Assembly: GCA_030062745.1 (NCBI GenBank)
Contig: CP099843.1
Location: 18,890,997-18,954,996, forward strand
Direction of reading: 5' to 3'
Length of the DNA stretch: 64,000 nucleotides
DNA from: Capitulum mitella
Taxonomy: Eukaryota > Arthropoda > Thecostraca > Pollicipedomorpha > Pollicipedidae
Below are positions 23,721 through 63,462 of the stretch, one piece after another. The translations under genes and the position numbers were made by a program. The notes beneath the pieces were generated by a model, which worked only from the letters and a program-made list of their open reading frames with translations, searched no databases and was not told the DNA's origin. Every line of letters begins with the position of its first letter. Position 1 is the stretch's first letter.

Positions 23721-24130
23721 GAGCCGATTGATATATGTTATTGTATCTGTGCGCTCCAACCGTCTAACAAGTTGACAAAGCGTAACATGGTTGCAGTTAT
23801 GACGTCATGGCTCGTTACCATAGCAGTGTACAGAAAATATTACATCATAAGATGCGAAAAGGATGCCCCAGAGGGTACATCAAGTTTCAGATGGATCACA
23901 CTAACCGTAAAGAAGTTGTCCTTTGAAAACCTCAGGGGAGTTGCACCCCCCCCCTGCACGGGCAAGGGTTAATATGCAGCGCTTAAATCACTGGTGCCAG
24001 TGGCCATGAAAATGGCCGTGGTAATCTAGCGGCAGGTACACACTCTCCTCGGGTTAGGCTGTGCCGTCCACTGCCTGGGGGCATGGGTCGGCCGGCGCCG
24101 CCGCGGAGGACGATAGATCGGGTGGCATTC

Positions 24131-24321
24131 AGCACCAGACGTCCTTCAAGTTAGCCTAGTGGACAGAGGTTCGTCGTCTCACCACTGCAAGGATTGTGGG
24201 TTCGAATCTCGACGTCGCTAGCTCTCGATCGGTGACACGCGTTGTGTGGACTGGACGGAGGACGTTTGAGTCCAAGTAGCTATGCGCACCAACCCAAATC
24301 AGGCAACAGCCAGCACCAGAC
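24131..24321 (+). repeat. tRNA-derived SINE with 10-bp target duplications
   Basis: The direct repeat AGCACCAGAC occurs at 24131-24140 and 24312-24321. Between them a tRNA-like head has box-A-like TTAGCCTAGTGGACAGAGG (from 24154) and box B GGGTTCGAATCTC (from 24199). A body of about 100 bases follows. The total length of about 171 bases is typical of a short SINE. The tail is not a long A-run. Confidence 0.6.
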
Positions 24322-24543
24322 CTGTACCGAGTGATTGTTTCAGTGGAGCAAATGCAGATATAATTAGCATCCAGTTACAATAAGCGAATTTAGTTGCAGC
24401 ATTCTTTGACAACTTCGTCGCGAAAAAAAATATGTCTGAACCCTATCAAAACGCAAAAGGCTCGCAACTGTCTTTTGGGCTGCCTTGCTGGAAATTTGAC
24501 AGGTCTGAAGTACAAGCACGGGTACGTGCGCCGACATACAGCA

Positions 24544-25640
24544 TCAGGAGTCGCTGGCCGATGGGTGATCTGGTCTGAGGTGTCGGGGAGACAGAGGACT
24601 GACCTGCGGCCCGGTCTGCGGCATCAGGAACCTTTCCTTGAGACTCGTGCGGTGCAGACTGAGTAGCGCCCACCAGCACAGCCGGTCGAGCTCTCTCGGA
24701 TCGTCATCGTTCCCAGAGAGCTGCGGCGGCGGGGCCTGCGACCAGCACAGCCGGTCGAGCTCCCCTGGATCGTCATCGTCGCCGCTGTGCTGCGGCTGCG
24801 GTGAGGTCTGCGTCGCGGACGTCGCCGTCCGGCCATGCAGGGCTCGGCGCCGCTCGCCTCGGCTGGGCTCGTCGACGCCACCGAGGCGGGGCACGAGCGT
24901 CACCCGCTTCACGTCGGCCGCCGGCGGCCGTTCGAGCGCCTGGAAGGTGGCGCTGCGACGCGGCAGCCGCGGCGCCCGGCCCGCCGTTCGAGTCGGCGGC
25001 AGCGTGCCGCACGAGGCGCGCCAGCCGGCCGGCGGGCATCGCGTGCGGCCGGCGGCGGTCGCCGCCTCCGGCCGAAACACGTCGACTGGACTGGCTGCGC
25101 GGGCTCCCGCTCCTGCAGCTTCTGACGGGTCGGAGCCGGGATTCAGAACAGTCCCCGCGGAGTCACCGTACACGGTACCGGCGGTACACCGCCGGAACGG
25201 ACTCGAACGTAAGCTACTGGGCTTCCCCGCAGACGCCGGGCTCCGCCCGGCTTCTCCATCAACTCCGGCCCGACTGTTCTTTTCTGTATCGGCTGGCGGC
25301 TGACCTGACACGACCCCAGGCCCGCTGGCGACGCCCTGCCTCTCAGCAGCGTCGGCCGGCGCCGAGTCGCCTCGCCCGGCGTCGTCCGTGACGGGCAGGC
25401 TGCGCTCCCAGCCGGGGCGGCCGGGCGGCTCGGCGCCACTGTCCGGCGGCAGGGACGCGCTCCGGGCGTGCGTCGGGCGCCGGCGCGGCCCGCCCGCCCC
25501 TTGGCTGTAGCTGCGCCGCGGCAACGTCACGCGAAGTCGCGTCACGCCCGTGTCCTCGGAGATGACGGCTCCGGCCGGGCCGTGTCCGGCGGCGGAAGGC
25601 CGAGCAGGCCTCCGGCTCAGTCCTAGCGGCGTCCGCCGGG
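24544..25640 (-). CDS. Candidate exon, Pro/Arg-rich minus-strand frame
   Basis: An uninterrupted minus-strand frame ends in a stop at its low-coordinate end and continues upstream past 25545 without an ATG, so it would be an internal or terminal exon. It is rich in Pro, Ala, Arg and Ser. Near the C-terminus a 23-residue unit is repeated (DDDPGELDRLCW then DDDPRELDRLCW, 69 bases apart on the DNA), followed by a Leu- and Ser-rich tail. No known domain is visible. GC-rich DNA keeps opposite frames open too (a plus frame covers 24638-25303), so this may be non-coding. In its favour, the acidic/tryptophan repeat is kept in frame. Confidence 0.3.
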
Positions 25641-26605
25641 CAGGTCGCCGCCTCCTGGCGCTGTCCGCACTCGGACACCGGAGTCCAGACGGAACGATGT
25701 GACGTCATCTGGCGCTGTCCGTACTCGGACTCCGGCGTCCGATCGGCAAGGCGTGACGTCACCTGACGCTTTCCACACTCGCATGCTGGCGTCCGGCCGT
25801 AACGATGTGACATCATCTGACGCTGTCCGCACTCGAACGCCGGCGTCCAGCCGGGACGGTGTGACGTCATCTGATACTGGTCTGCGCGGGATCTTTTACC
25901 CGACAAAGGAGACTCAACAAGACACGGTGTGGAGGAGCTGGTGGTTTCCGCTAGTCGTGCTGACATCGATGGTGCTTCGGGTCGGAGCGCAATTATTTCT
26001 CCTTTAAAACAACGGCTTGGTGAGGCCCATGTTTTCCGTGGTTTATGCTCACGTGATCCGCTTTCTCCCTCGAACGGCATGCTGGGGATGTCACGACACG
26101 GCCGCCGCCCTGCTGGAGGTCGCTCCGCACCGTCCATTACCTGTCGCTCACTAACGACTACAGCGCCGAGCCGCGGGCGGCCGGCCTCCTCCGTGCCTCC
26201 GCGCTGAGTGCGCTCCACCGCCGCCGGCCTGTCGCCCCGGCCGCTGTCGCTGTCCGTCCTTTGGCCGGGCTGACTGGCGCCAGGTGCCGCGGTCCGCACC
26301 GTCGTCGGCGCCGCGGCGGACGCCTGGGCCGCCGGCTCCAGGACGTCGACTCGGCGGGGCGGTCGCGGCGCGCTGTCCCAGTCGGAGCCGTCTGACGAGT
26401 CGTGGTCCACGCACGCCACGCAGCAGGCGGCCGGCCGGCGCGCGCAGAGTCGCATCTCGAGCGTCGACAACGTCCGCCGGCCCGCCAGCCGAGGTCTGGC
26501 CACGTCACGGGGCCAGCCCGAGTCTGTCGGATAGACGCCGTCCCCGGGCGTCCCGGAGCTGGGGCCGCACCGGCCGTTAGTGTACAGCGCGAGCCACTTG
26601 AGCAT
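25343..26605 (-). CDS. Candidate long exon with 18-residue repeats
   Basis: A 421-codon minus-strand frame from an ATG at 26605 (MLKWLALYTNGRCG...) is open to 25343; the frame also extends upstream of that ATG. It is low in complexity (Pro, Ala, Arg, Ser, Gly). Near 25640-25880 it carries four to five copies of an 18-residue unit of the type CGQRQMTSHRPGWTPAFE, encoded by an exact 54-base tandem repeat. It overlaps the previous candidate in another frame. No family is recognised. It may be part of a fast-evolving disordered protein, or an open frame by composition; on its own I cannot tell. Confidence 0.35.
   Translation of the reverse strand: MLKWLALYTNGRCGPSSGTPGDGVYPTDSGWPRDVARPRLAGRRTLSTLEMRLCARRPAACCVACVDHDSSDGSDWDSAPRPPRRVDVLEPAAQASAAAPTTVRTAAPGASQPGQRTDSDSGRGDRPAAVERTQRGGTEEAGRPRLGAVVVSERQVMDGAERPPAGRRPCRDIPSMPFEGESGSREHKPRKTWASPSRCFKGEIIALRPEAPSMSARLAETTSSSTPCLVESPLSGKRSRADQYQMTSHRPGWTPAFECGQRQMMSHRYGRTPACECGKRQVTSRLADRTPESEYGQRQMTSHRSVWTPVSECGQRQEAATCPADAARTEPEACSAFRRRTRPGRSRHLRGHGRDATSRDVAAAQLQPRGGRAAPAPDARPERVPAAGQWRRAARPPRLGAQPARHGRRRARRLGAGRRC
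25670..25880. repeat. 54-bp tandem repeat with CRE palindromes
   Basis: GTGACGTCAT or a close variant starts at 25699, 25753, 25807 and 25861, an exact 54-base period. Three of the four contain the full TGACGTCA palindrome (cAMP-response-element consensus); the third has TGACATCA. Confidence 0.75.
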
Positions 26606-26879
26606 GGCCACTCGACGTCGGGAGGAGCCGGGGCCGGAGCCGGGGCGAGGGTCGAGACCCAGGTCAGGCGCTAATGTCGGCGCTCGTGCCGTCCGCGTGC
26701 CCACTCGCCGCGCTCAGCTGGCATCGGCCGCTCGTCCCTCGCCGCCGGCGGCAGTTAGCGAGCACGACTGCACGACTGCACGCGGCGACTCCTTTCACCG
26801 CGGAACACGACGGAGTCTGCCCAGAGGAGACTCCCACACCAGCGGACCTGGTCAGGCCCAGCGAGCACGGCCGCCGGCC

Positions 26880-27275
26880 CCGCTCCTGCGTTCACTGTCG
26901 GCCGACGGTGGACCCCCTCCTGCCTTCACTGCTGGCCGACACTGGACCCGCTCCTGCCTTCACTGTCGGCCGACACTGGACCCGCTTCTGCCTTCACTGT
27001 CGGCCGACACTGGACCAGCTTCTGCCTTCACTGCTGACCGACACTGAACCAGTTCCTGCCTTCACAGCTGGCCAGCAGTGGACCCGGTCCTGCCTTCACT
27101 GCTGGCCGACACTGGACCAGCTCCTGCCTTCACTGCTGGCCAGCAGTGGCCCGGTCCTGCCTTCACTGCTGGCCAGCAGTGGACCCGGTCCTGCCTTCAC
27201 TGCTGGCCGGCAGTGGCCCGGTCCTGCCTTCACTGCTGACCGGCAGTGGCCCGGTCCTAGCTTCACTGCTGGCCC
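26880..27275 (+). repeat. 34-bp minisatellite
   Basis: TGCCTTCACT recurs at 26921, 26955, 26989 and onward at a spacing of about 34 bases, about eleven units in all, with variants GTCGGCCGACACTGGACCCGC and GCTGGCCAGCAGTGG. Because 34 is not a multiple of three, a single frame cycles through three different peptide versions, and all three frames stay open. This marks the overlying open frames (26580-27397) as repeat by-products. Confidence 0.8.
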
Positions 27276-27758
27276 TCGGCCGGCGGATCACGGTGCTGGG
27301 ACAACGACTGTATCCGCTGCAGGGCGTGTACCTCTCGGCTGGTGGGGTTGAGCTGGCTTCAATGTCTGGCAAAGGCCCGGCCACGCCCTGTGAATAGAAC
27401 GAATAAATCGACTTACATCCCTGCAGTTGGGAGCGCTGGGGCGTTGGGGTATCGGGACAAGAACAGCAGTTTTCACAGAAACACCAAAGACTTCGTTGTA
27501 CCGGTAGATCCTTGGTTCATCAGCGTACCACCGCCCTTCCCGCTGACTCGGGGTTTGAATGTGAAGCACCCCTGGCCGTTCCGGGGTTTCCCGAGGACAA
27601 AATTTTGTATAGGAGTATTGTTTTTTGTCTTCCTGTCTTAGCCGAGAGCACCACGACTTGTATTATTCTCTTTGGTTTGCAACTTTGATTTCTCTGGGAG
27701 ATAACGTAAGGTGACCTGTGTCATGGTGGATTTGGGAGGGATCATTACTGACCACCTG

Positions 27759-28006
27759 CAGGGGTGTCGATTTGTATTTCTTTGATGTTGTATTTCTTTC
27801 GTTGATATCGTATTTCTTTCGAGGGCGTCCTGGCCCATCCAATGCTGATTTGGGCCCCTCCAATGTTAGTTTGGGCCCCTCCAATATTTTCCGTCAGTTT
27901 TTAAGGGGATTGGGCGAAAACAATGAAAGAAACGTCCGCAATAGATAAAAGATAGGCAGAAAGCATAGAACGAGGTATGAAGTGATGCATCTATCCATCA
28001 TTCTAT

Positions 28007-43462: not shown

Positions 43463-43471
43463 TGTGAAAGT
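43462..43471. other. Target-site duplication, left
   Basis: TTGTGAAAGT matches 52401-52410 exactly. If the first base belongs to the right terminus, the duplication is 9 bases, the usual Mutator-like length. Confidence 0.75.
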
Positions 43472-43486
43472 CATGTCTGTCAAGAC

Positions 43487-43519
43487 AGCCCACGCTCAGC
43501 CCACGGTCAGCCCAAACTC
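43487..43519 (+). repeat. Subterminal 11-bp repeats, left end
   Basis: Three tandem units, AGCCCACGCTC, AGCCCACGGTC and AGCCCAAACTC, lie 15 bases inside the left terminus. Four related units in inverted orientation lie at 52344-52387. Short subterminal repeats of this kind are commonly transposase-binding sites; that role is inferred. Confidence 0.7.
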
Positions 43520-43689
43520 GAGACCTCTTTAAAATCGCCCAAAACGCGTAAGGAGATAAATGTTGACTAGCTGAGCTCATTGACACCATCAGACGTCCAT
43601 CGCATCTGTTACTTTGCACTACAGAGCAAGAAACACAAAACGCCACAAAAATACCGCGGATACAAATGTACATCAAAACCCCAACAAAT

Positions 43690-45190
43690 AGGTACTCAAA
43701 ATGTTCGTCTCGGACCGCTGAGTCCAAAAATGCAGCACACAACACATTTTGATCATAACATTTTGAGTTAGTGCGAAAAATAACCGTTTTTTTACCCTAT
43801 GCTTTATTTGCCATTGGATTTAACATGGGACCCTATGGAACTGATTTTGGCGGACCCCCTCGATTTCGCCCATTTCTTCTACACGAATACCCAGAACCGT
43901 CATACACACGAAACCATCATCAGAACTCTATCGCATTGATATCCACATGGTCAAATCGGGCTCCAAACAATATACGTCAAAAACACATTTTTTAATGTTA
44001 TTCCAAACCTAGGCAAACAGGTACTCAAAATGTTCGTCTTGTGCCGCTGAGTCCAAAAATAGCGCATACGTAACACTTCGACGAAAATTTTTTGAGTTAT
44101 AGCGAAACGGAACCGTTTTTTTACCCTATGCTTTATTTCCCATTGGATTTAACATGGGACCCTATGGAACTGATTTTGGCGGACCCCTTCGATTTCGCCC
44201 ATTTCTTCTACACGAATACCCAGAATCGTCATACACACGAAACCATCATCAGAACTCCATCGCATTGATATCCACATGGTCAAATCGGGCTCCAAACAAT
44301 ATACGTCAAAAACACATTTTTTAATGTTATTCCAAACGTAGGCAAACAGGTACTCAAAATGTTTGTCTTGTGCCGCAGAGTCCAAAAATGGCTCATACGT
44401 AACATTTCGGCGGAGACTCTTCGAGTTGTAGCGAAACGAAACCGTTTTTCTACCCTATGCTTTATTTCCCATTGGATTTAACATGGGACCCTATGGAACT
44501 GATTTCGGCGGACCCCTTCGATTTCGCCCATTTCTTCTACACTAATACCCAGAACCGTCATACACACGAAACCATCATCAGAACTCCATCGCATTGATAT
44601 CCACATGGTCAAATCGGGCTCCAAACAATATACGTCAAAAACACATTTTTTAATGTTATTCCAAACCTAGGCAAACAGGTACTCAAAATGTTCCTCTTGT
44701 GCCGCAGAGTCCAAAAATAGCGCATACGTAACATTTCGGCGGAGACTTTTCGAGTTGTAGCGAAACGAAACCGTTTTTCTACCCTATGCTTTATTTCCCA
44801 TTGGATTTAACATGGGACCCTATGGAACTGATTTTGGCGGACCCCTTCGATTTCGCCAATTTCTTCTGTACTGGTACCCAGAACCGCAATACACATGAGA
44901 CCATCATCAGAACTTCATCGCATTGATATCCACATGGTCAATGGGGCTCCAAAATATATACGTCAAAAACACATTTTTTATTATTATTCTAAACCTAGAC
45001 AAACAGGTACTCAAAATGTTGGTCTTGTGCCGCAGAGTCCAAACATGGCGCATAAGTAACATTTTGACGGAAACTTTTCGAGTTATAGCGAGACGAAACC
45101 GTTTTTCTACCCTATGCTTTATTTCCCATTGGGTTTAACATGGGACCCTATGGAACTGATTTTGGCGGACCCCTTCGATTTCGTTTCTCT
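43690..45190 (-). repeat. Left satellite arm, ~329-bp units
   Basis: The landmark CCGTTTTTxTACCCTATGCTTT occurs near 43784, 44112, 44440, 44769 and 45098, four full periods of 328-329 bases. The outermost unit is the most diverged. The innermost breaks off near 45185, where the transposase region starts. The orientation is inverse to the right arm. Confidence 0.9.
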
Positions 45191-45207
45191 TCATCTCATG
45201 GGAACCC

Positions 45208-47559
45208 ATGGCCTTACATGGGACCCATCGCACCCGACAAGAGAAGTTGGTCGAGGCCTCGGACGCAGAACTTCGTGACGGCAACACTTCGTCGGTGCCA
45301 AGTGCCCAAGTGCTGCGACAAGCAGCGGCAGAACAACGGGCTAAAGATCGCTACTCTCCCAGAGTAATCGAGGACCTAAACATTATGCGACGGATGTCTC
45401 ACGCTCTCGATGCTGCCAGCTCGTCCTCTCTGAAAGGTGACATCCACTTCATCGCGGGTGCTCCGCTCATGGTGCATGTTTACCGAAAGTTTTTTTTTCC
45501 AAAGGTACAGAATCGCACCGACGGAGCTCCATTTGGACTCAACCGGTTCAGTGACCAAAAAATATGGCGACATGGAGCCCCTCTACTACGCCGTGGTTGC
45601 AAAAGGGCAGGGTGGGAACACGTCGTACCCTATAGCCCACTTCCTGTCAGAGCGACATAACGTCCAAGCCATCATCCATTTTCTAATGCAGGTGGCTTAC
45701 GGCTACCGAGTGGCAAACGGAAATTCAGTATCACTCCGGCCGCCGCGCGTTGTGACGGACTGTTCGTACGCGCTGCTGCACGCCACGTGTCTGGCATTCA
45801 ATCAAATGGACCTCCCAGCGTACCTGGACGCATGCTGGAGCACCGCAGTGGAGGGGGGTGAGCACGCGCGGCCACCAGCTACATCTGTCAGCTTGTGCAC
45901 CGCGCACATGAGCCAGCAAGTTTCGTCTGCGATTGTCGCCCGCCTAGGGAGGAAAAAGAAAACCGAGCGGCAGAGGCTGATGTGGCTATTTGCACGCATG
46001 CAGCAGGCGTCCGACCTGGCAAAGCTAGACCGACTGTTCCGGTTCGCGTGTCGGCTGCTGCTGTCGCCGTGCACGCCTGCTCTCGATGTGCCGCTGCTTG
46101 ACGACGAAATGGACACACCGAAGACCAGCCGAAGCCACCCGAAGGCCAATCAGCCAAGGACAGGTGGCAGTCGTACCGACGCTCCACCAAGTTCGGCAAG
46201 CACTTCGAAGAAGTGATGATGTCTGTCGCAAAAGACGCTCAAAGTGAGAACCAAGGCGAAGAACAGAACAGCAGCTACTGCCCACTGCTGCTGTCTTCTG
46301 TTATGCCTCTCGCCCCTCTGTGGTCGCAGCTGATCACGACAAGGCCAGCATCAAATGCCTGCGTTGAGTCCTGGTTCAAGACCATCAAGAACCAGCTCAT
46401 GCAGAAGAGGAGGCGATTGCAGCCCGGCGAGTTCGTCGAGCTCCTGTTGCAAGACAGCTCGGCGCGACAAAAGGAGCCACTCATCCCACAGCAAAGCCGG
46501 AGACATAAAAGGAGGCTGTCAAGTGACATGGATGATGTGAAGGAGCAGTGGAAACCCAGAAAAGAAAAGAAACAGAGAAGGTTCACATACCTCCAGAAAG
46601 GTTTTCCTTCGTCATCTACTGCCTCCATCCACTCAGCAAGGAGCCAGATTACGCCAGCCGAAACTCCAGCCGAAACTCCAGCCAAGACTCCAGCCAGGAA
46701 TGCAGCCAAGACTCCATCCGAGACTTCACCTGAGACTCCGACCAAGACTCCAGCCAGGAATGCAGCCAAAACTCCATCCGAGACTTCATCTGAGACTATG
46801 GCCGAGGCTCCAGCTGAGGCTCCAGCTGAGACTCCGGCCAAGATCCTGGCTGAGACTCCAGCCAAGATCTCAGCCCAGACTCCATTCAAGACTCCGGCCG
46901 AAACTCCAACAGAGACAAGGAACCAGAGCATCACATCAGCTGGCCAGAGCTCCACGAGCGGGAAGGAACCCAGGAAATCGCTGAAGATCGGCAACCTGCT
47001 GGTACATTTTACCGAAATCGACAACCTGCTCATCAGCGGACGCGTACTTCACAGCGAAAGTGTCGCGTGGCTAGATGACAGTGTCATAGACGCCTTTTTG
47101 CTGTGTGTCGCCAACGCCAGCATTTTAGCAGTCTCAGTTTTCCAGTCCGCGTCGCTCAGCATAATGACTCGGCTGGCCCAGTCCAGACGCCTGGGCACGT
47201 ACCTCAAGGAGCGGTACGGCGTCCACCAGACAATGGCATGGCTCGTACCGTTTAACTTGGCGGCGTACGGAGGACCGTTACACTGGGTGTTGTTCGTCGT
47301 CGAACACACCGCCAAACGTGTCGTATACCTGGACTCAATGGGAAACAGGCATCCACCACGGCAAGCCCTGTATGACCTGCTGGCTCTGGTGAACGTGGGC
47401 CAGCCACCGTTCTGTTGGGCAGAATGAACCATCCTCATTCCGGACAACACACTCCGCCAGCGTGACGGTAGATCGTGCGGACTCCACGTTTGCCTGTATG
47501 GTGACGTTCTCTGCACGGGAAAGGTTTATGACATCGAAGAGAAGTCAGGCGACGCCTGA
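45208..47559 (+). pseudogene. DDE transposase fused to Ulp1/C48-like protease, interrupted
   Basis: The frame from ATG 45208 encodes an N-terminal region (SPRVIEDLNIMRRMSH). A shifted frame continues after a T-run near 45490. It holds the DDE core: first Asp in LHLDSTGSV, second Asp in PPRVVTDCSYALLHA, and a CxxH motif in LCTAHM. Near 46100-46165 the reading moves to a third frame (STKFGKHFEEVMMSV) carrying the likely Glu in NACVESWFKTIK. After a Thr/Pro/Ala/Glu linker of about 90 residues comes a Ulp1-like protease: WLDDSVIDAFL, His in HWVLFVV, Asp in VVYLDSMG. Past a TGA at 47425, Gln and Cys follow in LRQRDGRSCGLHVC, to the stop at 47557. All catalytic residues are visible, but two frame changes and one stop make this copy probably inactive. 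The protease fusion is known from some Mutator-like and other eukaryotic transposases. Confidence 0.75.
46640..46925 (+). repeat. Coding minisatellite in the transposase linker
   Basis: Twelve-base units of the type GAAACTCCAGCC (Glu-Thr-Pro-Ala) repeat through the linker. They include a larger duplicate reading KTPARNAAKTPSETS twice, 66-75 bases apart. The linker separates the DDE core from the protease domain. Confidence 0.8.
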
Positions 47560-48240
47560 TGGAGGTTCGTGTGTAAGTGGGCTTGTAGGATGTAGGTAGG
47601 TATGTAGGTATGCTGTGAGTCTGTATGCAGTTGTGGAAGTGTGCAGGCATCTGTGTTTTTGTACATCCGTGTTTTGTGGTGTCGTTGCCTCGATGTATCG
47701 GAACCTGCATGGCCCTAGATATGACTGAATGTCTCTCTGTGCTTGACTAGCGACGTAGTACATTACGAACAAGGCATTGTTGGACATTATGGGTTCAGAA
47801 TATTCTAAGAATATCTCGACATTCCACTGAGACTGCAGCATAATCCTGCTTGGTCGAAGCATGGCAGTCGTTGCAAAAAGCATACAGGATGTAATATCGT
47901 AGGTGTAGTCATGGGCAAGTAAAGTAATACCTTAGCTACACGTGTCTTGTGCACGGTCATAACGCTTGATATTCACTTTCTAATGCTAACATATTCTTCA
48001 GCCCGCAGCATCAAACGTGCATGGCTTAAATCATGCTATTCAAAAGCTGAAATGGTAGCTGATGGGGTTCGTGGTAAAAATCCGTCGTAAATCATAGTTC
48101 CTTTCATCAGCTTGCATCTGAAAATTTTGGTGGTAGGAGGTCAACACCACCTTAACATTTTTTTAAGTATCATTTTCCTACTGCAGTTTGGGACATAGCA
48201 TCCATTTTGCCATCTTGAACACGCCAATGAAACCACTGTG
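47560..48240. other. Non-coding spacer within the transposon
   Basis: No frame or recognisable motif is seen. A GTAGGTAGGTATGTAGGTATG tract lies near 47588. The stretch separates the transposase from the captured sequences. Confidence 0.5.
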
Positions 48241-48244
48241 TTCT

Positions 48245-48620
48245 GTCTTCACAGACTAAGCTGACAGCAGCTGGGACATCGGAGGTGATCTGGATGCCGC
48301 TGGCGTACCAGCTTGAGCACACACCGCGACGTTTCCCATTCACGTTGAAGGTCCAGCGGCTGCTTGGTGTATCCGTTCAGCAGTATCTTGTCGGCGTGTA
48401 AGCCTGGTCCCCAGATTGTCATCGTCAAATGTACACCACAGTGCTTCGTATGCCCCAAACTCATAATGCTCGTTCGTATGTCTTGTTTACCAGCGATAGG
48501 GCGGGATAAACATAATGTACGCCAATCATCGTCGTGCCCTTTTCTTCATAGGCGTGGATCGTTAACCGCCACCTTGGCCGTACTTTAACTAGGCCCGGTG
48601 CGGCTGCAGCGGAACCTCCG
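48245..48620 (-). pseudogene. Unassigned coding-like fragment within the transposon
   Basis: The minus strand shows coding-like text in two frames: VRPRWRLTIHAYEEK and MIGVHYVYPALSLVNK, then HCGVHLTMTIWGPGLHADK, and in another frame SRWTFNVNGKRRGVC and SGIQITSDVPAAVSL. I cannot assign it to a family. It may be a second captured host fragment, in opposite orientation to the adenosine kinase copy. Confidence is low because the frames are interrupted and no domain is recognised. Confidence 0.25.
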
Positions 48621-48853
48621 ACACGTTTCTATTGTCCTGGTACGACTGCAGCAGTGTCATCCGCACGTTCAGAGGGTCCTATGTTAAATCCGCTGCGGTG
48701 TCAAGCCGCACTAGGGCCCGAGAGACGTGACAATGACGATATCGCTGTAGTCGTGGCAATAACGTGCCGGTAACGCCGCTGTAGTCAGCTTGAGGTTGCT
48801 GCGCTGGTCAAGCAGAATCAAGCCAGGACCTTCTGGAGAATCGCCATCTTATT

Positions 48854-49855
48854 ATGCGTCTCTTTCCAGCTGTGCGTGCGGCCCCGGTGCCGCAGCCCCA
48901 TAATGGGCGACATCGCCACCGTCTGCTTTACTTCGGCAACCCGCTGCTGATCATGGTGCTGGATGTGAACAGTAGCGAACTATCGAGCAAGTGTGGCCTG
49001 TGGACCGACGACCAGACTGAGACTAACCAGCAGCAGAAGCCGCTGTCCGAGGTGTTCGGCAACGGCCAGGTGTCGTTCTGTCCGGGCGGCTCGGCGGAGA
49101 ACACCACTCGCCGGTACCGCCGGGTTCTGGGGGAGCTCGGATCGGTGGCCTTCATCGACGCTGTTGGTGTCGACAAGCTCCGTTAGAGGCTGGAGAAGCT
49201 GTTCAGCGCGGACGGCGTCGGCACCAGATACGTAGTGCACTTGGGCCAGCCCACGGGACGATTTAAGAACCTTGTTTGTGGTGCGGACCGCTCTTTAGTG
49301 AACGGCATCGACGGTGCCAATTTCTGCTGACCTGAGCGCGCCTTCGCGCCGCACAGGCTGGCTCTCCTCAGTAGCGACACTTGTGAACATTCTGATGGTG
49401 TTTCGTGACGGGTGACCCGGAGACGACCTTAGAGGTGCTCCGAACCAGCAAACAGCCGGCGTTCAGTTTGTCGGGCACGTATTTCTGCTAACGGCACGCA
49501 GCCACTGTCTGCCAGATGCTGCCCCACGTCACGCTCCTGGTCGGTCACGCGGCCCTGGCGCGCGCTGTCGGCCTCAAGGAGGACGATTTTGACGTGTCGC
49601 CGTCGGGGTTTTGCCGGCTTATCGCCGAGACTGCTGTCGTGCGACAAACGGTGGAGACCATGACAAGAGCAGAAAAGTCGGAACCAGCGGTCAAGGAGCT
49701 GCAGGATGGGAGCGTGCCAGATGTGAAGAACATCGTGACTCACACCGCCGAGTCGTTGGTGCTGCTGGACGCTGTCGGCACCTTATCGGTGGCCGTGCTG
49801 ACAATCTCGCCGTCTCTGATCGCCGACGGGAATAAACTTGTCTGTTGTTGATGCG
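48854..49855 (+). pseudogene. Captured adenosine kinase pseudogene
   Basis: The order of family landmarks follows adenosine kinase (PfkB fold, ATP-dependent phosphorylation of adenosine to AMP). They are GNPLL near 48937, CPGGSAENT (family PGGSxQN), FIDAVGVDKL, GVGTRYVVHLGQPTG (the QPTGTC region), RSLVNGIDGANFC, then SGTYFC (family SAPF), MLPHVTLLVGHAALA (family LPYVDxLFGNExEA) and SPSLIADGN, which sits where the catalytic VDTNGAGD motif should begin. The match is spread over about 900 bases with no intron, close to full length, and ends at the start of the right satellite arm, losing the Asp-bearing GAGD site. There is an in-frame stop at 49184-49186 and later stops, so it is not functional. 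Its position inside the transposon, on the transposase strand, indicates gene capture; the lack of introns suggests an mRNA-derived or intron-poor source. Confidence 0.8.
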
Positions 49856-49899
49856 TTGTCTGTCATGGCTTGGGCCAGTTTGGAAGCAGATTACAAAGT

Positions 49900-52140
49900 G
49901 TGGTTTTCACCCATTTTCTTTGGAGCCCAGTTTCACCGTTTGGATATCAATGCGATGGAGTTCTGGGGGTGGTTTCATGTGTATTACGGTTCTAGGTACC
50001 AGTACAGAAGAAATGGGCGAAATGGAAGGGGTCCGCCGAAATCAGTTCCATAGGGTCCCATGTTAAATCCAATGGGAAATAAAGCATAGGGTAGAAAAAC
50101 GGGTTTGTCTCGCTATAACTCGAAAAGTTTCCGTCAAAATGTTACTTATGCGCTATTTTTGGACTCAGCGGCACAAGAGGAACATTTTGAGTACCTGTTT
50201 GTCTAGGTTTGCAATAACATTAAAAAATGTGTTTTTGACGTATATCTTTTGGAGCCCGATTTGACCATGTGGATATCAATGCGATGGAGTTCTGATGATG
50301 GTTTCGTGTGTATTACGGATCTGGGCATTAGTGTAGAAAAAATTGGCGAAATCGAAGGGGTCCGCCAAAATCAGTTCCATAGGGTCCCATGTTAAATCCA
50401 ATGGGAAATAAAGCATAGGGTAGAAAAACGGTTTCGTTACGCTATAACTCAAAAAGTTTTCGTCGAAGTGTTGCGTTTGCGCTATTTTTTGGACTCAGCG
50501 GCACAAGAGGAACATTTTGAGTACCTGTTTGTCTAGGTTTGCAATAATATCAAAAAATGTGTTTTTGACGTATATCTTTTGGAGCCCGATTTGACCATGT
50601 GGATATCAATGCGATGGAGTTCTGATGATGGTTTCGTGTGTATGACGGTTCTGGGTATTAGTGTACAAGAAATTGGCGAAATCGAAGGGGTCCGCCAAAA
50701 TCAGTTCCATAGGGTCCCATGTTAAATCCAATGGGAAATAAAGCATAGGGTAGAAAAACGGTTTCGTTTCGCTATAACTCAAAAAGTTTTCGTCGAAATG
50801 TTATTAATGCGCTATTTTTGGACTCAGCGGCACAAGAGGAACATTTTGAGTACCTGTTTGTCTAGGTTTGCAATAATATTAAAAAATGTGTTTTTGACGT
50901 ATATCTTTTGGAGCCCGATTTGACCATGTGGATATCAATGCGATGGAGTTCTGATGATGGTTTCGTGTGTATGACGGTTCTGGGTACCAGTACAGAAGAA
51001 ATTGGCGAAATCGAAGGGGTCCGCCAAAATCAGTTCCATAGAGTCCCATGTTAAATCCAATGGGAAATGAAGCATAGGGTAGAAAAACGGTTTCGTTTCG
51101 CTATAACTCAAAACGTTTTCGTCGAAGTGTTACGTATGCGCTATTGTTGGACTCAGCGGCACAAGAGGAACATTTTGAGTACCTGTTTGTCTAGGTTTGC
51201 AATAATATTAAAAAATGTGTTTTTGACGTATATCTTTTGGAGCCCGATTTGACCATGTGGATATCAATGCGATGGAGTTCTGATGATGGTTTCGTGTGTA
51301 TTGACGGTTCTGGGTACCAGTACAGAAGAAATTGGCGAAATCGAAGGGGTCCGCCAAAATCAGTTCCATAGAGTCCCATGTTAAATCCAATGGGAAATAA
51401 AGCATAGGGTAGAAAAACGGTTTCGTTTCGCTATAACTCAAAACGTTTTCGTCGAAGTGTTACGTATGCGCTATTTTTGGACTCAGCGGCACAAGAGGAA
51501 CATTTTGAGTACCTGTTTGTCTAGGTTTGCAATAATATTAAAAAATGTGTTTTTGACGTATATCTTTTGGAGCCCGATTTGACCATGTGGATATCAATGC
51601 GATGGAGTTCTGATGATGGTTTCGTGTGTATTACGGATGTGGGCATTAGTGTAGAAAAAATTGGCGAAATCGAAGGGGTCCGCCAAAATCAGTTCCATAG
51701 GGTCCCATGTTAAATCCAATGGGAAATAAAGCATAGGGTAGAAAAACGGTTTCGTTACGCTATAACTCAAAAAGTTTTCGTCGAAGTGTTGCGTTTGCGC
51801 TATTTTTTGGACTCAGCGGCACAAGAGGAACATTTTGAGTACCTGTTTGTCTAGGTTTGCAATAATATCAAAAAATGTGTTTTTGACGTATATCTTTTGG
51901 AGCCCGATTTGACCATGTGGATATCAATGCGATGGAGTTCTGATGATGGTTTCGTGTGTATGACGGTTCTGGGTATTAGTGTACAAGAAATTGGCGAAAT
52001 CGAAGGGGTCCGCCAAAATCAGTTCCATAGGGTCCCATGTTAAATCCAATGGGATATAAAGCATAGGGCAAAAAAACGGTTATTTTTCGTACTAACTCAA
52101 AATGTTATGATTAAAATGTGTTGTGTGCTGCATTTTTAGA
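49900..52140 (+). repeat. Right satellite arm, ~329-bp units
   Basis: The inverted landmark AAAGCATAGGGTAGAAAAACGG occurs near 50091, 50421, 50751, 51081, 51411, 51741 and 52070, six full periods. Each unit carries an AATAAA on the plus strand (AATGGGAAATAAAGCAT). Diagnostic variants (ATTAGTGTAGAAAAAATTGG, GTGTTGCGTTTGCGC) recur at an offset of 1318 bases, that is four units, which indicates a higher-order repeat. Confidence 0.9.
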
Positions 52141-52343
52141 CTCAGCGGTCCGAGACGAACATTTTGAGTACCTATTTGTGGGGGTTTTGATGTACGATTG
52201 TCTCCGTCGTATTTTTGTGGTGTTTTGTGTTTTGTGCTCTGGAGTGCAAAGTAACAGATGCGATGGACGTCTGATGGTGTCAATGAGCTCAGCTAGTCAA
52301 CATTTATCTCCTAACGCGTTTTGGGCGATTTTAAAGAGGTCTC

Positions 52344-52387
52344 GAGTTCGGACTGACCGTGGGCTGACCGTGGGCTGAGCGTGGGCT
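52344..52387 (-). repeat. Subterminal 11-bp repeats, right end
   Basis: Four units (reading in reverse complement AGCCCACGCTC, AGCCCACGGTC twice, AGTCCGAACTC) mirror the three units at the left end. The right end has one extra unit. Confidence 0.7.
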
Positions 52388-52400
52388 GTCTTGACAGACA

Positions 52401-52410
52401 TTGTGAAAGT
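52401..52410. other. Target-site duplication, right
   Basis: TTGTGAAAGT matches 43462-43471 exactly. It directly follows the terminal TTGACAGACA of the element. Confidence 0.75.
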
Positions 52411-60059: not shown

Positions 60060-62554
60060 TCAAAAGAAAGTTATGGCTTTTGTTTCGAGTGTTGCAGTTT
60101 TACGCGCAGGTTGAAGCGATTGCCAGTGAACACACTCAAAACGAAACAAAATATACAGAAGGCATGATGTTCAGAATTAAACCACGAAGATAACTTCCCA
60201 GCACCAAACACACTTCAGGACCGATGTTTTTCTCATGAAAATGCTTCCTGTTTCCAAGGAGTTTCTTCCAATGGTCATGATATCCCCTCTAAGCAGACAT
60301 CAGCGGCGTGGTATTAAGGCAACTTATCTCCATGACAACGTGTTCAGCCAAGGGCACCGAGAAACATGCACGTTATATTGGCTGGTATGATATTTCTGTA
60401 TGTTGTCTTTGTTCATATCCAAGGTTATGCGAGTCTTCTACAGCTTGTGTAACAAAACATGGGGACATTCGGAATCTACTTCATAAGTGACTGGTCACTA
60501 AAAGGCGTAGTAAAAGGCTATATCACCAGGCCGCGGGGAAAAAGTTTGGCCGATCGACGAAGCCGTCTGATCCGGTCCGGTCCCGGCTTGGCCATCACAC
60601 AGCCAACCAGAAAGAGACAGCCAGACAGAAGACGACAGAGAACACGGCGTATAAGCAGGTTTATTGTGATTTCGGCGAGCTGGTGCAGACAGCACCGGGT
60701 GAGTACAGCGGCCAGCGACCGGCCGCGCCCCCTGCACATACGGCAGCGGCCGACGCCCAATCAGAGGCTGTCCACCGCGCACAAGCCACGCCCATCGTAA
60801 TACTAACACGAGCACAAGCTACAACTGGCTGACGGCAAATGCTGACTGGACCATTCAGTGAGCTTATCCTAACATCGGCACGAGTGGTCATGGCTTAGTG
60901 AATGGGCACGCATTGTACCAGGCACGACAAAGACCCGAATCCTGGTCCACATCAAACCATTCAGAAAATACAGATCCAGGCGCAGCCGCGTAAACGGGAC
61001 GATTCCTTAACAGCTAACATTTCCAACTGAAATTCTGTTACGCACCTTGCTGAGTGGCATGATTCTGACGCCATTAGGTGCGATAATGACTACCACGTAA
61101 TGGTTTGCGACACGGGTCCCTCCAACACGAGTACCAGAGGTCGAGGGTGCACACATGGGCCATTCAGGCCAATTTACTGTCTCTGCCTGCATCGAGACAA
61201 GTGCACTGCTGCGTTTCCAACCACTAATGCAGAGGGCGATGCGGGAACATCATCCTGGTTTCCCAGATGTTACGGGCACGGGCTGACGCTACAGTGGGCA
61301 GTTTCCTTACTGGGGTTACTCCAGCTCAAACTGTTCCTCTTTCGTCGAAAGCTGTCCACCCCTGGACAATCAGCACAAACCAGCACAAATACCTGACCAA
61401 TAACATGACATGATGCAATAACGAAGTAAATGCTGAATGGAAACTACGGACGTAGTGAGGGATCTTCCAAGTTCTGAAGACAGGAAGGTAGGATGTAAAT
61501 GGGAAGCCTTTACAATATCCATGGGATCAGCTACAAGCTACATTTGAACAGTTCCATCCGTTTTAGTGCGAAAAAACAACCTACAAGACGCGAACATCAG
61601 AAGACAAAACCACACAAGGCCGCACAAAATTTAGGTCAGTTCCTCAATACATAACACCGAGCAACAACTTCGCAGTTTCCATGGCGCGCAGGCATTTCGT
61701 ATAAACTAAGCGATGGTCACCAGTTTTGATGACAGGAGGACCCAAAACAGCCTCTGACAAACATTCAACACGCCGACATATGATCTTTAGATATAACCAA
61801 AGCGTAGGTTATTCTTCGACAGCCGTTTATGATAAGGCCACGCACGAAAAAAAAACAGGTCCCTGTCCACACGAACATATGCACAAAATACACATTATGA
61901 CGTAAGCGGATAACGCGGCGAAAACCTGAGTTGTTCTTCGTGTTACGGCGTTTTCAGCTCCACCTCCACATCCAGAGCGACGCACTTCATAGAGTTCTGT
62001 TGCATTTACGCCACGACGTCCCCCTCGGAAAAGCTCTTCTGCGACCAGCGCCGCGACAGGTATATACAGCAGCAGCAGAAGAAGTAACCACAAACTTCGC
62101 AAAGCAGTCCCCGCATGCACCACCACGAGATAGTTTCGCATGAGAGCAGTAAACAGGCACCCCAGAAAACCACGGCAGCAAAAAGCTGTGAAAAGCTCTG
62201 TTGCAGCTCGCAAACAAGTTGTAAACCACTATCAAAACACGGGCTAGCGGTTGGCCCCGTAAAATAGTCATCATTGTACAGACGCCCCAGCCGAGATGAG
62301 GTGAAAAAGACATGACAGAGCAGACCTCACGCGCATTTGTCACAATCAAAGCCCACACTATCCCAACCTGCAGATATTCTCAAGTACCAAACCCAAACTG
62401 TAACGCCTTGGGATTCATAACCAATATCATTTCGGACTTGCCAGGACGACCCCAAGCGACGGCGCTCAATGGCCAGCAGAAGCGGAAACCTGCAGCTTCG
62501 ACAGGCACTCAGTAGGTGGCTCTTAGGTCGGCACGCTCAGCGTATCACTGGCAT
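60060..62554. other. No gene recognised
   Basis: A CpG-rich stretch at 60640-60800 includes GCCCAATCAGAGG (CCAAT box) and AGCCACGCCC (KLF/Sp-type) sequences on the plus strand, which could be promoter sites. Frames here are short and unsupported. Nothing else is recognised up to the gap. Confidence 0.35.
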
Positions 62555-63054
62555 NNNNNNNNNNNNNNNNNNNNNNNNNNNNNNNNNNNNNNNNNNNNNN
62601 NNNNNNNNNNNNNNNNNNNNNNNNNNNNNNNNNNNNNNNNNNNNNNNNNNNNNNNNNNNNNNNNNNNNNNNNNNNNNNNNNNNNNNNNNNNNNNNNNNNN
62701 NNNNNNNNNNNNNNNNNNNNNNNNNNNNNNNNNNNNNNNNNNNNNNNNNNNNNNNNNNNNNNNNNNNNNNNNNNNNNNNNNNNNNNNNNNNNNNNNNNNN
62801 NNNNNNNNNNNNNNNNNNNNNNNNNNNNNNNNNNNNNNNNNNNNNNNNNNNNNNNNNNNNNNNNNNNNNNNNNNNNNNNNNNNNNNNNNNNNNNNNNNNN
62901 NNNNNNNNNNNNNNNNNNNNNNNNNNNNNNNNNNNNNNNNNNNNNNNNNNNNNNNNNNNNNNNNNNNNNNNNNNNNNNNNNNNNNNNNNNNNNNNNNNNN
63001 NNNNNNNNNNNNNNNNNNNNNNNNNNNNNNNNNNNNNNNNNNNNNNNNNNNNNN
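62555..63054. other. Assembly gap, exactly 500 N
   Basis: A run of exactly 500 N is a conventional scaffold placeholder; the true size is unknown. Reading frames spanning it are meaningless. Confidence 0.98.
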
Positions 63055-63462
63055 ATGTAAAATGTCATCGGCTGCTCTTCCCGTAGCTTACCGCTTTTCA
63101 TTATTGGAAGGACAAGACGCATGACGAGACACTCGACTTGACGAAGGAGTAGTCGGCTTACGATTACGACGCTAATGGTTAATCCTGAATGACGCGTCGG
63201 AAAAGAAGCCAGAAAACAACTGTAGGATATAGATGGCCAAAGCGTGGAACATTGGTTGGCGCCTTGCAGGGGCGTCGATTTCTGTAAATGATTAGGGGGG
63301 CCGAGCCGAGGACCAGACAACCTAACTTCCCCCCCAAATGTAGGTTTTTCAACGGTGTTAGCTTACTTTATTTTGACCAAAGGAAATTTACAACTATTTT
63401 TGTTAATATTTATCAGATAAAGAAAAGTGGAGACTTACAATAAAAAAATCCGCGTATATTGG

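Follow-up and report, generated by a model that had tools for sequence, protein, structure and literature searches.

A copy of the host adenosine kinase (ADK) mRNA has very probably come to lie between the terminal inverted repeats (TIRs) of a Mutator-like transposon in the barnacle Capitulum mitella, where it lost its coding capacity early and was carried to dozens of sites through cut-and-paste transposition. The window, the 64,000-nucleotide stretch of DNA analysed here (C5:18890997-18954996), contains one such element, in which a DDE-Ulp1 gene and an ADK copy free of introns have the same orientation, as the preliminary description of this DNA had claimed (Table 1). Directly visible in the sequences are the intronless exon joins, a 5'UTR exon together with 3'UTR, a stop codon common to the copies, distinct target site duplications and a neutral substitution pattern. 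The genome searched for related copies comprises 477 Mb in 16 contigs; barnacle assemblies with 16 chromosomes are mentioned in PMC11331182.

Table 1. Features of the transposable element and its ADK cargo in the window.
Feature	Position in window	Strand	Evidence
Left target site duplication TGTGAAAGT	43463..43471	.	Sequence; script pairing of termini
Whole TIR element with DDE-Ulp1 gene and ADK copy	43473..52401	+	Termini ATGTCTGTC...GACAGACAT; collinear copies
Left TIR: unique end and 330-bp tandem units	43473..45183	+	Inverted repeats; unit matches
DDE transposase, first piece (LHLDSTGSV ... VVTDCSYALLHA)	45434..46213	+	Open reading frame; relatives P0002, P0003, Amphibalanus P0048/P0049; other copies
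DDE transposase, second piece (NACVESWFK), and start of Ulp1 (Peptidase_C48)	46102..47424	+	Pfam PF02902, E 2e-4
5'UTR exon from host ADK, captured and joined by splicing to first coding exon	48758..48869	+	Alignment to L049; left limit approximate
Intronless ADK, pseudogenic: remainder of 5'UTR, start codon at 48903, coding exons 1-6 to host base 954	48870..49827	+	
Apparent residual ADK 3'UTR after internal deletion	49829..49872	+	Local alignments barely above shuffles
Right TIR	49878..52401	-	Inverted repeats; unit matches
Right target site duplication TGTGAAAGT	52402..52410	.	Sequence; script pairing of termini

Element structure and transposase

The element begins with ATGTCTGTCAAG at 43473, and the inverted copy of ATGTCTGTCAAG ends at 52401. 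The matching termini and 9-10 bp target duplication proposed in the preliminary description are both present, TGTGAAAGT occurring on either flank with a single unmatched C at 43472, between the left duplication and the element start. The TIRs, ~1.7 kb on the left and ~2.5 kb on the right, are composed of 330-bp units and show 94% complementarity over 816 nt (43902-44717 versus 50486-51301). None of the element repeats was found in the 54.5 kb of the window outside the element, and an Rfam scan of the window returned nothing at the gathering threshold. Elsewhere in the window, positions 24001-28000 reach a GC content of 63-66%, compared with ~40-53% in other parts, and contain long open frames that overlap and occur on both strands; part of the stretch 62421-63362 consists of N, translated as X.

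Target duplications of 8-11 bp and long TIRs are expected of Mutator-like elements (MULEs). Duplications of 8-10 bp flank six of the eight elements for which both ends were available (the window element, L028, L029, L031, L040 and L041), none being detected by script at the other two (L036 and L039). The long TIRs of the window element exceed the 13-1193 bp given for arthropod MULEs in PMC13359780. Searching the DDE part against Pfam at E values up to 10 gave no useful match and no MULE model; a relative of this part carries the automatic UniRef name MULE transposase domain-containing. Membership of the Mutator superfamily, based on the target duplication and TIR structure and on this automatic name, is provisional because no Pfam MULE model matched. 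Of the earlier proposal of an animal Mutator-like element with a captured ADK, the capture and the TIR and target-duplication structure hold, whereas the class name finds no Pfam MULE match.

The transposase gene of the window element is degraded. Its first DDE piece is broken by frameshifts and lacks the N-terminal domain, a part that another copy possesses. The Peptidase_C48 match (E 2e-4) exceeds the curated cut-off of the model. The Ulp1 domain is interrupted by a stop, with the remainder of the domain located downstream. Structure prediction of the DDE part was poor (mean pLDDT 39.0).

In the Amphibalanus protein P0049, a relative of the DDE part is fused to Peptidase_C48, and a search of the host genome with P0049 gave at least 77 matches, with 74 of 135 candidates scored. 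Open frames of 1181 aa contain two of these matches, C12:988502-989683 and C3:26147162-26148343. Both frames cover the entire Ulp1 part, and they adjoin the ADK of L015 and L020, respectively; the openness of the C12 frame over 988601-990443 was taken from the listing of frames rather than from the letters. The C12 frame matches Peptidase_C48 with E 6.5e-9, and its N-terminal part, which gave no Pfam match, is 51% identical to P0050. The left TIR of this locus was not found in the 4.1 kb upstream (984500-988600). The autonomous gene earlier described as still present is broken in the window itself, but open frames persist at these two other ADK-bearing loci. Among the P0049 matches listed, other open frames of ~800-1170 aa occur without known ADK. 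They include the related transposase matches at C13:19482016-19483173, C1:23421312-23422463 and C1:8750882-8751964, whose open frames measure 1167, 1064 and 1110 aa, respectively, none at a known ADK locus; these are possible autonomous relatives. Because open frames exist at C12, at C3 and in ADK-free relatives, transposase would likely be supplied to the family by copies with a long open frame, either those at C12 and C3 or relatives free of ADK.

Spliced host mRNA as source of the cargo

The host ADK gene lies at C1:22054320-22060186 on the minus strand, separate from the element. It comprises seven coding exons with GT-AG borders, a 3'UTR and a 5'UTR exon ~5.5 kb upstream, near C1:22065.7k, where the homology stops exactly at the GTGAGC donor. 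The best protein matches of this gene are from Pollicipes pollicipes (76%) and Amphibalanus amphitrite (68%). Element repeats are absent from both stretches around it (L044 and L049), so that a TIR-free parental copy is found elsewhere in the genome, as in Pack-MULEs and Pack-TIRs. A separate intron-bearing host gene, which the preliminary description had named as support for capture, thus exists.

Positions 48903-49827 of the window align with host ADK coding bases 1-954 as one block with 75% identity, crossing the host coding junctions at 164, 329, 498, 705 and 854 without introns, and one open piece of this block matches solved adenosine kinases (E 1.4e-4). Upstream, the 5'UTR exon aligns to L049 with a score of 66, versus at most 39 in 200 shuffles. 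The corresponding scores are 61 for L053 and 56 for L047 (shuffle maxima 40 and 43), the best score of L047 anywhere in the 8-kb L049 being 59, above the 56 at the 5'UTR exon. In L053, L051 and L052, exon 6 passes into exon 7 without an intron and the alignment continues into the 3'UTR; seven introns are gone in L053 and six in the window copy.

To judge from these alignments, the cargo derives from a full-length spliced host mRNA, because the exon joins are exact, the 5'UTR exon is spliced on, and the crossing from exon 6 to exon 7 extends into the 3'UTR. Exact removal of introns with UTRs included is a feature of processed retrocopies. In L053 and L051, whose ADK ends were inspected at the 3' limit, neither a poly(A) tail nor a target duplication of the retrocopy itself was visible; the family is old. 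Capture from genomic DNA, as in plant Pack-MULEs, is ruled out, introns being missing at every junction covered.

These results agree with the earlier description of the copy as intronless, with its expectation of ADK homology across several segments, since the whole stretch aligns to the host gene, and with its guess of an mRNA-derived source. The same description called the copy near-full-length, which it is not: of the 379 codons of the host gene it reaches only ~318, falling short of the GAGD motif and lacking the catalytic C-terminus, and it contains stops at host codons 96, 144 and 202. Just beyond this limit, the short segment before the right TIR aligns with the host 3'UTR, L053 and L051 with scores of 37, 40 and 39, compared with 36, 39 and 36 for the best of 500 shuffles, and all three alignments fall at one homologous place. 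It looks like leftover 3'UTR; the passage from exon 6 through exon 7 and on into the 3'UTR has gone from the window type through an internal deletion.

We propose that the spliced full-length ADK mRNA was first converted into DNA by reverse transcription and that the resulting retrocopy would then have ended up inside a Mutator-like DDE-Ulp1 transposon, flanked by its TIRs, an order of events that we infer. The transposon might instead have taken up cDNA itself, a break or gap at the MULE being repaired with ADK cDNA or through template switching, with no prior free retrocopy. The ADK indeed seems to lie between element sequences without a poly(A) tail of its own, and fork stalling with template switching has been proposed for multicopy Pack-TIRs (Tan et al. 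2021, PMC8277862). However, the original junctions are hidden by age, and a tail-less retrocopy made by LINE machinery would look identical. Moreover, the template-switching model as presented by Tan et al. uses genomic templates, and intronless captures were removed from their set (PMC8277862). We therefore regard direct uptake of cDNA as rather unlikely.

Spread, decay and ancestry of the copies

A DNA search with positions 48560-49880 gave at least 50 matches (40 of 81 candidates scored), the best reaching 97-99% along the entire length, and a protein search with the host ADK gave at least 119 (118 of 140 candidates scored). Clustering of the matches, with one weak match on C15 left out, yielded at least 70 ADK loci outside the host gene, the window's included, distributed over all 16 contigs. 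Two pairs of loci are ~3 kb apart, one of which (L043) lies within a single element. We read 57 of the 70 loci, in 56 stretches, and found element repeats in 55 of these stretches, L062 being the exception.

Several copies are collinear with the window element: L039 is 99% identical over 45185-49878, and L040 and L041 are about 98-99% identical over the shared parts. L040 and L041 have a common insertion of ~980 bp in the Ulp1 part (3700-4681 in L040, at ~5535 in L041), which by eye we take to be mariner-like. Since the two elements occupy different sites, the nested insertion must itself have been carried along. The same ADK in collinear copies with other target duplications is also incompatible with an ADK that was resident at the locus before the transposon. 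No match to the transposase region 45185-48700 was found in L025-L038. Among these, L028, L029 and L031 retain both termini, target duplications and ADK, and are classic Pack-MULEs. The search for further copies called for in the preliminary description has thus recovered both window-like and transposase-free elements. The family would have moved the ADK to dozens of sites by cut-and-paste transposition, and internal deletions together with loss of the transposase would have produced the Pack-MULE-like derivatives.

One copy differs in its architecture. In L043:2638-7273, ADK is present in both inverted arms (564 nt, 96% complementary), which run into TIR repeats and surround a transposase remnant; the right end was not recognised. 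The arms look as if the TIR grew inward over the cargo, and in this one of the copies read ADK would have spread into both arms.

The ADK frame appears to have been lost early. At host codon 144, TGA is found in 50 of the 51 readable sequences (of 55; four are gapped), including the early-branching L053; the exception, L047, has TGG, which could be a reversal or reflect an earlier branch. TGA144 derives from CGA, a mutable CpG, and its sharing could therefore be partly parallel. Codon 225 is TAG in L053, L054, L067 and L068, GAC in L033, and aligns differently in L047. Differences between copies at codon positions 1, 2 and 3 are 0.117, 0.111 and 0.107 (55 sequences; for these and the stop counts, the poorly aligned L069 and L073 and the duplicates L046 and L048 had been dropped). 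The common stop and the even differences over codon positions indicate that a nonsense codon probably killed the frame before most copies arose and that nothing coding has been kept since; by this pattern, the ADK is a neutral passenger in the element family. The early-branching ADK of L050 (C10:8767500-8771500) has two pieces in long open frames with few stops, its middle being frame-shifted.

In a nucleotide tree built without L069, L073, L046, L048, L051 and L052, the host gene, L053 and the group of L047 plus the rest meet near one point (72% support), whereas all copies apart from these are united in one clade supported at 100%. On this evidence, ADK was likely captured once. As the deep split is weakly resolved, more than one capture may have taken place, and related elements could have acquired ADK mRNA copies several times independently. 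Besides the near-trichotomy, the 3' limits of L053, L051 and L052, which differ from those of the main group, are in line with such repeated captures. Yet L053 has TGA144 like the main clade and TAG225 like L054, L067 and L068, and it has the same upstream sequence as the window element. Furthermore, the fully supported main clade has a breakpoint near host base 954-958 that is common to its subfamilies, in agreement with the shared capture breakpoints anticipated in the earlier description. Repeated capture is, in our judgement, improbable.

The cargo might also have been retained for an effect of its RNA: antisense or hairpin RNA of ADK would lower host ADK and thereby weaken transposon silencing. 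Such RNA would come chiefly from copies whose two inverted arms both contain ADK, and ADK feeds the methylation cycle. Plant viruses attack ADK to block silencing. Of 59 aligned copies, a set that still contains duplicates of four loci or poorly aligned sequences, 48 share an exact stretch of at least 21 bases with the host mRNA, the longest being 30. We consider this explanation for the retention of ADK very doubtful.

To place the capture in time, we compared residues among barnacles. At 29 sites, Pollicipes and Amphibalanus agree with each other against the host; at the 28 scorable ones, the elements have the host residue in 10 cases, that of the other two barnacles in 9 and a different one in 9. 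At control sites, the special state of Pollicipes was matched at 2 of 31 and that of Amphibalanus at 2 of 65, 4 of 96 when pooled (Fisher P 4e-5 versus the pooled controls and 0.008 versus the Pollicipes sites alone). Because the elements share residues with the host, capture in the host's own barnacle lineage is suggested, partway along the branch after the split from Pollicipes. Horizontal transfer of element and ADK from another species would fit the 23% divergence of the window ADK from the host gene and the presence of transposase relatives in ENA contigs of unassigned host. It is highly improbable, since the elements share 10 of 28 host-derived residues, compared with 4 of the 96 states peculiar to Pollicipes or to Amphibalanus. 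The ADK was kept through several amplification waves, but a working gene that still serves the transposon can be dismissed given the common nonsense codons, the frameshifts, a window type without the catalytic end and substitutions spread evenly over codon positions.

Relation to known gene-carrying transposons

Animal DNA transposons are usually viewed as capturing genes from genomic DNA, with gap filling or template switching as the mechanism. In the present family, TIR elements contain as a regular component a copy of spliced mRNA, UTRs included, at ~70 ADK loci, in forms with and without transposase and with ADK in the inverted arms. This shows that RNA-based copying and DNA-based transposition can act together in spreading a host gene. 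The family provides a dated, countable case for testing the entry of cDNA into TIR elements, the loss of cargo and its copying into TIRs.

The nearest known case is Ssk-FB4 of Drosophila melanogaster, in which FB4 was placed in the MULE superfamily and the elements were called Pack-MULEs (Tan et al. 2021, PMC8277862). As described there, long TIRs likewise enclose a near-complete host gene, the target duplications measure 9-10 bp, and the gene has been moved several times. By the same account, the captured Ssk came from genomic DNA, together with its introns and sequence upstream of it; it occurs in a few copies, and it is expressed and appears to function. The barnacle ADK, by contrast, is spliced, dead and present at ~70 loci, with some copies keeping the transposase gene. 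More generally, gene sequence between TIRs and several copies flanked by target duplications are shared with the Pack-MULEs and multicopy Pack-TIRs treated in that paper, of which a frog example was amplified to three chromosomes (PMC8277862). According to its methods as given, this animal Pack-TIR survey discarded intronless captures to exclude retroduplicates, and therefore the ADK type falls outside it by design (PMC8277862). Multicopy Pack-MULEs in animals are thus already known, and an mRNA-derived, high-copy one is new. No published ADK in such an element was found among titles and abstracts of the open-licence literature.

Further systems share single traits with the ADK elements. Rehavkus and other MULE groups resemble them in a 9-bp target duplication, long TIRs and minisatellite repeats (Dupeyron et al. 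2019, PMC6446971). Compared by description only, Rehavkus differs in its TIRs of 26-400 bp, its PHD finger and a one-sided minisatellite, and the word Ulp1 is absent from the main text of that paper (PMC6446971). Turmoil-1 of C. elegans, as portrayed by Sela et al. (2008, PMC2572040), carries host coding fragments within inverted terminal repeats, as does L043, but belongs to the Harbinger superfamily and is represented by eight fragments besides a single complete copy. In Pseudocercospora fijiensis, according to Dhillon et al. (2019, PMC6710886), a DNA transposon likewise carries a housekeeping gene, histone H3, in very many inactive copies; there the element is a fungal hAT and its copies were inactivated by RIP.
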